From an uncultured Collinsella sp. (GTDB lineage: Bacteria > Actinomycetota > Coriobacteriia > Coriobacteriales > Coriobacteriaceae): 64,000 bases of DNA. The translations under genes were made by a program, and so were the position numbers. Location of the stretch: contig CASELS010000002.1 in NCBI GenBank assembly GCA_949288855.1, forward strand, positions 1 through 64,000, read 5' to 3'. The notes below the pieces were generated by a model, which saw only the letters and a program-made list of their open reading frames with translations, was not told the DNA's origin and did not search any database. Shown one piece after another: positions 16,144-21,467 of the stretch; within the stretch, counting starts at the first letter, position 1; every line of letters begins with the position of its first letter.

Positions 16144-16246
16144 CGTCCGCTTCTTGATTCATCGTGTAGCTTAAACCTATCCCGGGCAGGGTGGGGTAGA
16201 ATGAATTGAACCACGATTGCGCACGGCGCAGACGATAGGAGTAACC

Positions 16247-16681
16247 ATGTCATTCACACCGGATGTCCAGGGCGGCGCAAACAACAACGTCGACCAGACC
16301 CGCGTTTTCCGTATGCCCACCGACGATGCCACGGCGCCGGACCTCATGAAGAGCGTATCGCTCTCTCATCCCGTGCTCACCATCATCAAGGGGCCGCAGA
16401 CCGGCAACACCTTTGAGCTCGACGAGGGCGAGACCACCATCGGTCGCGACCCGGCGAATTCCATCTTCCTGAACGATATGACCGTCTCGCGTGCCCACGC
16501 CAAGATCGTCCCCGGTCCCACCGGTATGGTTATCGAGGACCTCGGCTCGCTCAACGGTACGTGGGTCGACGGCGCCATCGTGAATTCGGCGCCCTTGCAT
16601 GACGGTTCGTCTGTCCAGATCGGCACCTTCACGCTGATCTTCCACGAGACCAAGCCGGAGCGCATCGAAACGGGTGATTAA
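16247..16681 (+). CDS. FHA-domain protein, GarA/OdhI-like
   Basis: A 144-residue phosphothreonine-binding protein. The FHA domain spans residues about 43-125 with the binding residues G66-R67, S81, H84 and N103 (GSLNGTWVDG). The N-terminal tail carries DQTRVFRMP with Thr18, resembling the phosphorylated ETTSVFRAD tail of mycobacterial GarA and corynebacterial OdhI, which folds back on the FHA domain and turns these regulators of 2-oxoglutarate metabolism off. An FtsR-like MerR gene follows, as in mycobacteria (Rv1827-Rv1828). A switch role is therefore likely by analogy. A possible -10 TAGAAT lies at 16197. Confidence 0.85.
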   Translation: MSFTPDVQGGANNNVDQTRVFRMPTDDATAPDLMKSVSLSHPVLTIIKGPQTGNTFELDEGETTIGRDPANSIFLNDMTVSRAHAKIVPGPTGMVIEDLGSLNGTWVDGAIVNSAPLHDGSSVQIGTFTLIFHETKPERIETGD

Positions 16682-17654
16682 TTTGGCCGAGCGCAGCTAC
16701 CTGAGCATCGGCCAGGTCGTCAACTATCTGCGAAGCTCCTATCCCGACCTCTCCAACTCCAAGATCCGCTTTCTTGAGGACGAGGGGCTCATCACGCCGC
16801 ATCGAACCCCTAAGGGCTACCGCCAGTACTCCAAGGAGGACGTGGACCGGCTCGAGGTCATCCTGCATCTGCAGAAGACGCGCTACATGCCTCTGAACGT
16901 CATCAAGCAGCGCCTCGACAACGCCTCGGACCTCTCCACGCTCGCCTACGAGGTGGGCCTCCTTTCCGACGTGCCGCTCAAGACGGAGCCCAAGGAGACG
17001 CAGCAGAAGCTCCATCCCATCGAGGACGTTCCCGACCTTCTGGGAGTCAAGATCTCGTTTCTGCGCCAGCTTGCCGAGAACGACCTCATCAAGATCGTGC
17101 GGAGCCCCAAGAACCGCGAGCTCATCGATGGTCGCGACTTCGACATCATCCGCTATGCGTCTGAGCTCTCGCGCTTTCACATCGAGCCGAGGAACCTCCG
17201 CCAGTACGTCGTTGCCGCCAACCGTGAGTCAACCATGTTCGAGCAGGTGCTCACCGGTATGCTCGGCATGGACACCTCCGAGGGCGACCGCAACGCAAAG
17301 ATCGAGCGCGCCTTCAAGAAGCTCCACGACCTCACCGACGGCGTGCGCACGTCGCTCCTTAAGAACCGGGTCTTTGAGTCGCTGAACGCCATCGTCGAGG
17401 ATGCAGACATCGACGCCATTGACGAGCAGATCGAGCAGACGGAGGCAAAACGCGCGCGCGAGGTGGCCGAGGCCTCCGCAGAAGAAGCCTCAGCCGCCCC
17501 GGCGATCTCCGCCGGGGCTCCGGGGGAGAACACCGCCTCTGCTGACAGTGTCCGTGGCCGTGAGCCCGAGGTTCAACCCCTGCCGCTGCCCGGGCTTGAG
17601 ACCGCATCCGTAAGAACTGAGAAGAAGGCCTCCCGTCGCAAACCCAGGCCTTAG
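16674..17654 (+). CDS. MerR-family regulator, FtsR-like
   Basis: A 326-residue transcription factor. The MerR winged helix (residues about 8-78) has LSIGQVVNYLRSSYPDLSNSKIRFLEDEGLI, and residues about 112-180 form a second winged-helix-like unit (VPDLLGVKISFLRQLAENDLI), the layout described for Rv1828/FtsR rather than for metal-sensing MerR proteins. The C-terminus is a variable Ala/Glu-rich tail. The GTG start lies within the FHA gene (8-base overlap). In Corynebacterium FtsR activates ftsZ; the same role here is inference from synteny and architecture. Confidence 0.82.
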   Translation: MINLAERSYLSIGQVVNYLRSSYPDLSNSKIRFLEDEGLITPHRTPKGYRQYSKEDVDRLEVILHLQKTRYMPLNVIKQRLDNASDLSTLAYEVGLLSDVPLKTEPKETQQKLHPIEDVPDLLGVKISFLRQLAENDLIKIVRSPKNRELIDGRDFDIIRYASELSRFHIEPRNLRQYVVAANRESTMFEQVLTGMLGMDTSEGDRNAKIERAFKKLHDLTDGVRTSLLKNRVFESLNAIVEDADIDAIDEQIEQTEAKRAREVAEASAEEASAAPAISAGAPGENTASADSVRGREPEVQPLPLPGLETASVRTEKKASRRKPRP

Positions 17655-19867: not shown

Positions 19868-20491
19868 TCAGTGGTTGGATGCCTCGTCATATCCAAGAAA
19901 ATCGAGGTAACCCACGAGGTGAGCCTTGGCGGCGAAGGCGAGGACGGCGCTTCGAACGAGCAGGGACTCCCGTGTGACGCGCGAAGCGGTATCAGTCCAC
20001 TCATCATCGCCCCCGATGGAGAAGAAGTGCCTGAGGGCGCGTTCGAGCTCGGTTGCCACGTAGTCATAGGCAACATCGGTCATGTAGGTCATCTTCTGGA
20101 TACGGAAGAGATCCGAGATAGCAGAGATAGACAGAACCTGCTTAAACACGCAGATGACGAGAAGCCGAGCAATCTGTTCGCGTCCGTAAAGCTTCTTTTG
20201 AGGGGCGCTCAAGAGATGCGCCTTCACATAATTGTTCACCATGGACGGAGTGAGCCACGGGCCCTCGGAACATTCGTTCAGAGGCTCGAAAACATTCTCC
20301 ACAAGCGCGATAACCTGCTCGCGGTAGAGCTCAACCGTTGGGAGCTCGTTGTAGCGGGGGAAGTGGAAAGAGAGAATTCGCTGAGCCATAGGGGAGCGCA
20401 CAAAGTCATCCGGTAAGACGGTGGGCGCAATATCCTCCTGAGAGATGCTACTGGAGGCATCGGACATGGGAATGACCCGAGGATGCTGCAT
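19868..20491 (-). CDS. DUF1836 protein, probable MerR-fold DNA-binding protein
   Basis: A 207-residue protein of the DUF1836 family, common in Gram-positives and without known function. Residues about 80-130 (LTPSMVNNYVKAHLL, PQKKLYGREQIARLLVICVFKQVLS) follow the spacing of a MerR-type winged helix, in which a first helix-turn-helix is followed by a wing containing Lys-Lys-x-Tyr and an Arg-Glu-Gln helix. I infer DNA binding. It is divergent from degV across 127 bases that contain two spaced palindromes. The ATG at 20491 is chosen because GGGAG lies 8 bases upstream; ATG at 20467 is an alternative. Confidence 0.82.
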   Translation of the reverse strand: MQHPRVIPMSDASSSISQEDIAPTVLPDDFVRSPMAQRILSFHFPRYNELPTVELYREQVIALVENVFEPLNECSEGPWLTPSMVNNYVKAHLLSAPQKKLYGREQIARLLVICVFKQVLSISAISDLFRIQKMTYMTDVAYDYVATELERALRHFFSIGGDDEWTDTASRVTRESLLVRSAVLAFAAKAHLVGYLDFLGYDEASNH

Positions 20492-20532
20492 ATCAGACGC
20501 TCCCAACACTCGAAATCTTTTGCTCTATTAGG

Positions 20533-20551
20533 ATACTAGCACACCTAGTAT
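20533..20551. promoter_or_regulatory. Perfect spaced palindrome, candidate operator 1
   Basis: ATACTAG-5 bp-CTAGTAT, arms perfectly complementary, in the divergent DUF1836/degV intergenic region. CTATTAG, also part of the 24-bp repeat in degV, begins just upstream at about 20525. The geometry suits a dimeric regulator. No protein is known to bind it. Confidence 0.5.
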
Positions 20552-20559
20552 GAAAAACT

Positions 20560-20574
20560 AGCTATACTGTAGCT
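20560..20574. promoter_or_regulatory. Second spaced palindrome overlapping a -10-like hexamer, candidate operator 2
   Basis: AGCTA-5 bp-TAGCT, with the same 5-bp spacer as operator 1 and centred 25 bp from it. It overlaps TATACT (20563-20568), a good -10 hexamer for degV, so a bound protein would block the promoter. No convincing -35 is visible. Confidence 0.45.
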
Positions 20575-20618
20575 AACGAACATGACACGCGCTGTTGGGG
20601 CGATACGAAAGGATTGGC

Positions 20619-21467
20619 ATGAGCTGGGCGATCATCGCAGATTCGAGCTGCAATCTTAGGGACTACACACCTCAGGCTCCGGATACGCTCTATGCATACG
20701 CGCCACTCAAGATCAACGTCGGCGGCACCGAGTTTGCCGACGACGCTAATCTCGACGTAGCCGAGCTGAACCGTCTCGTAGCCGAGGAGAAGAGCGCCAG
20801 CTCGAGCGCTTGCCCCAGCGCAGGGGAGTGGGCAGAGCTGTTCCGGAGTGCGGAAAACGTCATCGCCATCACCATCTCTGCCAACCTTTCGGGCAGCTAT
20901 GAGGCAGCCTCCATGGCGCGCGACCTTGTGCAGGAGGAGGGCGGTCATCGCATCCATCTCGTAAACTCGCGCGCTGCCGGCGGCAAGCTCGAGATGCTCG
21001 TCATACTATTAGATAGGTACCTAACTGTCCATCCTGAGGCCACCTTTGCGGAGGCCTGCGCCTATATCGACGGCATCGAGCAGTGCTCCACCGTTCTGTT
21101 CTCACTCAGCAGCTACGAGAACCTTACCAAATCCGGCCGTATGCCCAAGATGGCCGGCATCCTTGCCAATAAGCTAAACATCCGCGTGCTCGGCACGGCA
21201 TCTGAAGAGGGCACCATCAAGATCGTCGCACCCACGCGCGGACAGAAGAAGATGGTCGCGAAGGTCGTTCAGTCCATGGAGGCTGACGGCTACAAGGGCG
21301 GTCTCGTATGCATGGACCATGTGGACAATGAGGCGGGCTGCCAGGAGATCGCCGCTGCCATCACCGCCAAATGGCCCGAGGCTGAGGTCATGGTCATGCC
21401 TTGCGGCGGCCTCTGCTCGTACTACGCTGAGGCAAAGGGCATCATAATCGGCTACGACTGGAAGTAA
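20619..21467 (+). CDS. DegV/FakB-family fatty-acid-binding protein
   Basis: A 282-residue DegV-fold protein. The family binds a fatty acid in a cleft and, in characterised cases (FakB), presents it to the kinase FakA for phosphorylation and use in phospholipids. ADSSCNL, the SANLSGSYEAA lipid-carboxylate motif, and the late TRGQKKM and CGGLCSYYAEAKGIIIGY segments are visible. No fakA gene is in the window. The ATG at 20619 has GAAAGGA upstream. Codons 129-136 (ATA CTA TTA GAT AGG TAC CTA ACT) are a cluster of A/T-rich rare codons unlike the rest of the gene, and match a repeat at the trxB end. Confidence 0.9.
   Translation: MSWAIIADSSCNLRDYTPQAPDTLYAYAPLKINVGGTEFADDANLDVAELNRLVAEEKSASSSACPSAGEWAELFRSAENVIAITISANLSGSYEAASMARDLVQEEGGHRIHLVNSRAAGGKLEMLVILLDRYLTVHPEATFAEACAYIDGIEQCSTVLFSLSSYENLTKSGRMPKMAGILANKLNIRVLGTASEEGTIKIVAPTRGQKKMVAKVVQSMEADGYKGGLVCMDHVDNEAGCQEIAAAITAKWPEAEVMVMPCGGLCSYYAEAKGIIIGYDWK
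21005..21028 (+). repeat. 24-bp imperfect direct repeat, copy A (inside degV)
   Basis: It matches positions 21998-22021 at 22 of 24 bases. Its core TAGGTACCTA is a perfect palindrome, and the wider 16-bp AGATAGGTACCTAACT is one mismatch from perfect. It coincides with the rare-codon cluster of degV, so the DNA sequence itself appears to be constrained. Confidence 0.6.

Follow-up and report, generated by a model that had tools for sequence, protein, structure and literature searches.

A DUF1836 protein with a predicted MerR-type fold as the probable local regulator of a divergent degV gene

Results

The DUF1836 and degV genes

The window, the whole stretch of 64,000 nucleotides from an uncultured Collinsella sp. 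analysed here, carries two divergent genes and, between them, several short repeats (Table 1). The product of the minus-strand ORF matches DUF1836 (PF08876) over residues 51-142 (5.2e-26), and its 91.2 bits against a Pfam gathering score of 27 place it within that family. The divergent ORF encodes a DegV protein (PF02645, 8.5e-44; TIGR00762, 1.4e-44). We took ATG 20491 as the DUF1836 start because the motif MxxxxVIPMSD is conserved there; with this start the gap spans 20492-20618, and the 127-bp divergent region described in an earlier note on this DNA is borne out. The nearest named DUF1836 loci belong to an uncultured Collinsella sp. (99% protein identity) and to Collinsella sp. An7 (77%). 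Elsewhere in the window (16217-17654), an FHA-domain-like gene is followed by a MerR-like gene, both recognised by eye and unrelated to the DUF1836-degV pair.

Table 1. Genes and promoter features of the DUF1836-degV locus (positions in the window)
Feature	Position	Strand	Remarks
DUF1836 gene	19868..20491	-	207 aa from ATG 20491; start by conserved MxxxxVIPMSD
DUF1836 gene, alternative GTG start	20509	-	product of 213 aa
degV gene	20619..21467	+	282 aa; DegV family, putative acyl-binding, FakB-like
Predicted DUF1836 operator core, CTAGTATGAAAAACTAG	20545..20561	strandless	13/14 to consensus; site conserved in 105/143 loci
21-bp footprint of predicted operator	20543-20563		core plus flanking AT
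Third half-site, ATACTAG	20533..20539		left arm of the first palindrome of the earlier note; clade-specific
AGCTA-N5-TAGCT	20560..20574		second palindrome of the earlier note; probably not an operator
TATACT, putative degV -10 hexamer	20563..20568	+	10 nt from operator centre

The degV product belongs to the DegV family and scores 42.3 bits against the cut-off of 350 of the FakB1 NCBIfam equivalog; among the four DegV proteins of the window's genome it scores lowest. FakA is present in 62 of the 65 genomes of the family and was not found in the window's genome, for which an incomplete genome is thus the likely reason. The fatty-acid link of the locus comes solely from what is known of the DegV family.

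Predicted fold of the DUF1836 protein

The earlier note had seen a MerR-like winged-helix pattern in residues 80-130 and had named a structure prediction compared with MerR folds as a check. An AlphaFold2 model from 66 aligned sequences was confident (mean pLDDT 88.8, pTM 0.81), and the first 22 rows of its structural comparison were all MerR-family proteins (Z 7.6-10.3), many of them DNA-bound. The best matches included CadR (Z 10.3) and MtaN (Z 9.3); the GlnR-DNA structure matched with Z 9.5 (2.5 Å over 72 residues) and CarH-DNA with Z 7.9 (1.9 Å over 66 residues). Of these rows, we take CadR, PbrR691, GlnR, MtaN, CarH and SCO5550 to be MerR-family members, and the remaining ones are so titled. 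Row 23, Rv1828, is presumably MerR-like as well; row 24, Rv2018, follows at Z 5.6, and plainly unrelated proteins begin at Z 4.3. Middling Z values are common for helical models, as the tool itself warns; here the MerR rows are set off from all others. The MerR-aligned part starts near residue 57-61, and therefore residues 80-130 fall inside it, so that the predicted structure agrees with the pattern first noticed. The monomer model also contains helices at 144-163 and 180-204.

Other searches gave little. Foldseek alone found no match to the model at E<=0.001; no Pfam MerR model matched the protein at E<=1, the only Pfam matches being DUF1836 and DUF7449; a PDB sequence search with the family profile returned nothing below E 0.41; and hhalign of the DUF1836 profile against the window's own MerR-like protein, a single sequence, was weak. 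Taken as a prediction, a MerR-type winged helix-turn-helix fold of the DUF1836 protein is supported.

A conserved palindrome between the two genes

Two inverted repeats had been proposed as operators, and both exist exactly in the intergenic region. ATACTAG-N5-CTAGTAT (20533-20551) is the sole match in the window at <=2 mismatches, against 0.01 expected; AGCTA-N5-TAGCT has two window matches at <=1 mismatch against 0.42 expected, and is therefore not clearly beyond chance.

DUF1836 occurs in 55 of the 65 genomes of the window's family and in 145 of the 297 genomes of its order. The order-wide comparison used 143 DUF1836 loci, namely 149 matches minus six (two in G217 and those in G220, G242, G246 and G279), with ten further loci dropped as second copies. 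Automatic sorting classed 102 loci as divergent, 24 as convergent and 17 as lacking degV within the stretch; among the 24, L019 is probably missorted because of a long overlapping frame.

A different palindrome, CTAGTAT-N3-ATACTAG, recurs at >=11/14 positions in 105 of the 143 loci, compared with 1.3% of 1430 shuffles. In the nine genomes of the window's genus, both it and the DUF1836-degV pair are conserved. Across 64 thinned sites, which were picked on 14 positions, the AT flanking either side shows 71-99% conservation although it played no part in selection; with it, the palindrome becomes 21 bp long, ATCTAGTATTNAATACTAGAT. In the window this site consists of one arm of ATACTAG-N5-CTAGTAT and the adjoining AAACTAG, and it is the sole site in the genome at <=1 mismatch. 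The first proposed repeat (>=12/14) is kept in 24 of the 143 loci, of which five belong to the window's genus and 19 to a single Collinsella-type clade, and the second (>=9/10) in just four, against 1.0% of shuffles; we rejected AGCTA-N5-TAGCT as an operator on this count. On sequence comparison, the conserved operator is CTAGTAT-N3-ATACTAG at 20545-20561, in place of the two palindromes put forward before.

The remaining 38 order loci have no TAG-type site; part have a CGG type and part a diverged or no clear site, this second part being genera g2, g5 and g6 of the family. Two g2 loci (L011, L012) have the variant GTGGTAT-N3-ATACCAC before degV, with the geometry kept and the bases changed, and genera g5 and g6 have weaker palindrome variants.

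Exact matches to CTAGTHTN3ADACTAG were found in 56 of the 297 genomes, one per genome, and the reversed control pattern in 2 genomes. Of these 56 sites, 47 lie at duf1836/degV, eight in tRNA-Thr genes and one elsewhere. A larger regulon was thus not seen, either in the window's genome (one site at <=1 mismatch) or among the 297 (one exact site in each of 56). The tRNA cases place an operator-type palindrome in the anticodon arm of tRNA-Thr(TGT) (L187, L190-L196), unrelated to DUF1836. Locus L188 has an exact operator-type palindrome, CTAGTTTGGCAAACTAG, at 1501-1517, in a genome (G108) with no DUF1836 match.

Separated genes and genomes without DUF1836

In 22 Collinsella-type genomes degV and DUF1836 are convergent, so that one site cannot serve both genes. 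All 22 loci carry two sites, one upstream of degV (13/14) and one upstream of DUF1836 (10-12/14). The other scored convergent locus, L124, has a site before DUF1836 (11/14) and none before degV. In L061, one of the 22 (genus g3), the two genes have by eye exchanged places relative to the window with their strands kept, and the pair is flanked by NlpC/P60-like and trxB-like genes.

Ten family genomes without DUF1836 retain a degV orthologue (56-65% identity). The site is present at 40 of 54 degV promoters in family genomes with DUF1836 and at none of 10 in those without it (Fisher p 1.3e-5, uncorrected for kinship; L024, with no degV sequence in its stretch, was left out of the 55 DUF1836 loci). 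Comparison thus shows that the operator and the DUF1836 protein occur together at both genes, even when these are separated.

Loci in Bacillota and a second operator class

Scanning named genomes, we kept 80 DUF1836 loci, 54 of them from Bacillota; degV was divergent and adjacent at 38 of the 54, by hand count from the listing. Their intergenic regions hold another palindrome, ATCGGTTTTTNAAAAACCGAT, with the same length and centre as the Coriobacteriia operator. GTTTT-N3-AAAAC is found in 28 of the 54 regions and is absent from 20 shuffles of each, and the CGG-type pattern (<=2 mismatches) occurs in 22 of 41 Bacillota genomes, at one place in 15 and at 2-6 places in 7.

Of 250 Bacilli genomes, 70 have DUF1836. 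A matrix derived from Coriobacteriia alone and then applied to Bacilli detected its site (p<=0.01) at 35 of the 47 loci with a DUF hit, and 28 of these are among the 30 loci with the best scores (L305-L334); three further loci had no DUF hit by profile, and L335-L354 come in part from the same genomes. One of the two misses, L334, shares its genome with L349, where the site ATCTAGTTTTCATAACTAGAT falls outside the scored region. The gene beside DUF1836 looks like hemolysin III at L344 (by Pfam) and at L345-L347 and L349 (by eye), and degV adjoins DUF1836 at L342, L353 and L354. As far as sequence comparison goes, many gut bacteria in two phyla very probably share this kind of switch and site.

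The two operator types follow the protein. Position 92, counted from the GTG start, immediately precedes an invariant Asn-Tyr pair in the second helix. Among 236 thinned loci, those with Asn92 have the TAGT type in 125 cases, both types in 9, CGGT in 1 and no site in 36, and those with Ser92 have CGGT in 45, TAGT in 1 and no site in 10; one locus combines Thr92 with CGGT, and 8 lack both motif and site. Both classes are found in both phyla, with 12 Ser/CGGT loci in Coriobacteriia and 25 Asn/TAGT loci in Bacilli. On the DUF1836 tree (140 rows, with as few as 129 columns), a single branch with a support of 98 (local SH-like) separates the two classes, whereas 7 changes are needed for the phylum label; the operator therefore tracks the DUF1836 subfamily rather than the host. 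It follows that the split is one event, which does not by itself make residue 92 responsible. We accordingly rejected the idea that residue 92 determines which operator is used, real as the association is. In both phyla, a second DUF1836 subfamily is thus accompanied by a second operator class of the same predicted geometry.

Position of the operator relative to the degV promoter

The operator centre in the window lies at about -22 relative to the putative degV start region implied by TATACT. No good -35 was seen for this promoter, and a simple sigma-70 scan did not list TATACT. In 56 thinned divergent loci, degV-side -10-like hexamers number 38 against 7 in shuffles, and 15 of them sit 19 nt from the operator centre, about -31. 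All 22 loci of the convergent clade place the degV operator centre 38-39 nt before TATAAT, about -50. The distance from operator centre to putative degV -10 thus takes values of 10, 19, 25 or 38 nt, varying by clade. Judged by the long -35/-10 spacer of MerR promoters, the locus offers a centre near -22 in the window, -31 or -50 elsewhere, and no good -35.

Discussion

We consider it highly probable that the DUF1836 protein acts as a local transcription regulator with a MerR fold, probably as a dimer, and that it binds 20543-20563 and controls both the divergent degV gene and its own. In the mechanism we propose, the protein would bind the 21-bp palindrome directly as a dimer and block the promoters of degV and of its own gene. 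Repression is the most likely outcome, as reported for YkrK at htpX, and a membrane- or acyl-chain-related signal may relieve it. The compact autoregulated degV switch suggested earlier is upheld by the comparative data as to control of degV and of the regulator through a divergent palindrome; its operator is a different one. That reading thus had the right gene, fold and kind of regulation and the wrong operator, and the case for it is stronger than its initial evidence suggested.

Whether the regulator represses or activates degV is the main alternative to weigh. MerR-type activators sit near -22, the very position of the window's operator, where no good -35 was seen, and the degV operator near -50 in all 22 convergent loci lies outside the core promoter. 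The DUF1836 protein might then activate degV, in a MerR-like or class-I manner, and repress only itself; indeed, the -50 position in the Collinsella-type clade suits activation as well as repression. We nevertheless regard this as unlikely, since positions that vary by clade would hardly be tolerable for an activator that distorts DNA, and a passage of PMC11790237 lists YkrK, the only relative that has been studied, as a repressor. The spread of operator positions is likely to be best tolerated by a repressor.

The other alternatives concern the sites themselves. Repression through ATACTAG-N5-CTAGTAT and AGCTA-N5-TAGCT is very unlikely: both repeats exist in the window and 24 of the 143 loci keep the first, but five of these fall in the window's genus and the other 19 in a single clade, and the second recurs in four. 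It is also most improbable that another regulator binds the palindrome and that DUF1836 is a bystander linked to degV, given that the site is missing before degV in all 10 genomes without DUF1836, precedes DUF1836 genes beside hlyIII where the locus has no degV, and tracks the DUF1836 subfamily across phyla in its class, and that the protein has a predicted MerR fold. Inverted repeats can form hairpins, and the palindromes could in principle be RNA elements, such as terminator or leader hairpins, instead of protein-binding sites; yet their arms are AT-rich around a centre of 3 bases, they lie on the promoter side, overlapping or abutting putative -10 boxes, and no terminator was called on them in the window, which makes this explanation barely credible.

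In comparison with MerR-family regulators (CadR, GlnR, MtaN, CueR, CarH, NmlR), the DUF1836 protein shares the predicted fold and a palindromic promoter site, whereas it has no Pfam MerR match, carries about 50 residues before the fold and has an operator whose position is not fixed. A degV-family gene under a transcription repressor has a precedent in FabT, which controls fakB4, a degV gene of S. pyogenes, according to a passage of PMC10138225. FabT is a different regulator, of fatty-acid synthesis genes, while DUF1836 is encoded beside degV and apparently has a single target. Our search of the open-licence PMC literature found no paper on degV control by DUF1836. An extract of a gene list of L. 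ruminis places DegV and DUF1836 genes side by side (PMC12688256), and the pertinent part of the CREST paper assigns DUF1836 to the Pfam HTH clan, notes hlyIII and DegV as neighbours and suggests that it regulates hemolysin III genes; this part proposes no fold type, operator or degV control (PMC3146951).

The analysis gives DUF1836, a Pfam family of unknown function, a predicted fold, a candidate DNA site and a candidate target, and it points to a local control of degV/FakB-type genes besides FabT. Three membrane-related genes, degV, hemolysin III and htpX, may thereby come under one regulator family in two gut-common phyla. A broader generalisation, which we offer tentatively and would not yet favour, is that DUF1836 proteins are widespread MerR-fold, single-target regulators of membrane-lipid or membrane-stress genes (degV/FakB, hlyIII, htpX) in Bacillota and Coriobacteriia, with one 21-bp geometry, with TAGT and CGGT specificities in the Asn92 and Ser92 subfamilies, and with an acyl or membrane signal being sensed.

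YkrK is the closest studied relative. Work in J Bacteriol in 2012, to go by titles, reportedly described YkrK as a novel type of regulator, its operator and its role as an htpX repressor. B. subtilis was the one control genome with a DUF1836 match, and in the B. subtilis-type locus L335 a sigI-like gene and rsgI are followed by a DUF1836 gene with a product of 233 aa and by a divergently oriented gene for an M48 peptidase. The same order is given around ykrK and htpX in the part of PMC11790237 (2025) that calls YkrK a repressor of HtpX. By gene order and Pfam, the sole DUF1836 protein of that genome sits at YkrK's place, and the family is therefore not wholly uncharacterised; the term "uncharacterised family" in the earlier note was too strong, the HTH clan and the gene neighbours being in print as well (PMC3146951, in the part cited above). 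The window's protein shares with YkrK the DUF1836 Pfam domain and a single divergent target, and in these respects it is of the YkrK type. The protein at YkrK's place differs in its weaker DUF1836 match (2.2e-14), in having a membrane protease gene instead of degV as its target, and in the absence of the window-type operator. A TAG-type operator was absent from all seven loci of the weak-scoring YkrK-like group (L336-L341, L343). Near the gene start, upstream of the htpX-like or the DUF1836 gene, L335-L338 and L340 carry AAGTTC-N4-GAACTT-like repeats, and such a repeat is a possible operator of the YkrK-like group.
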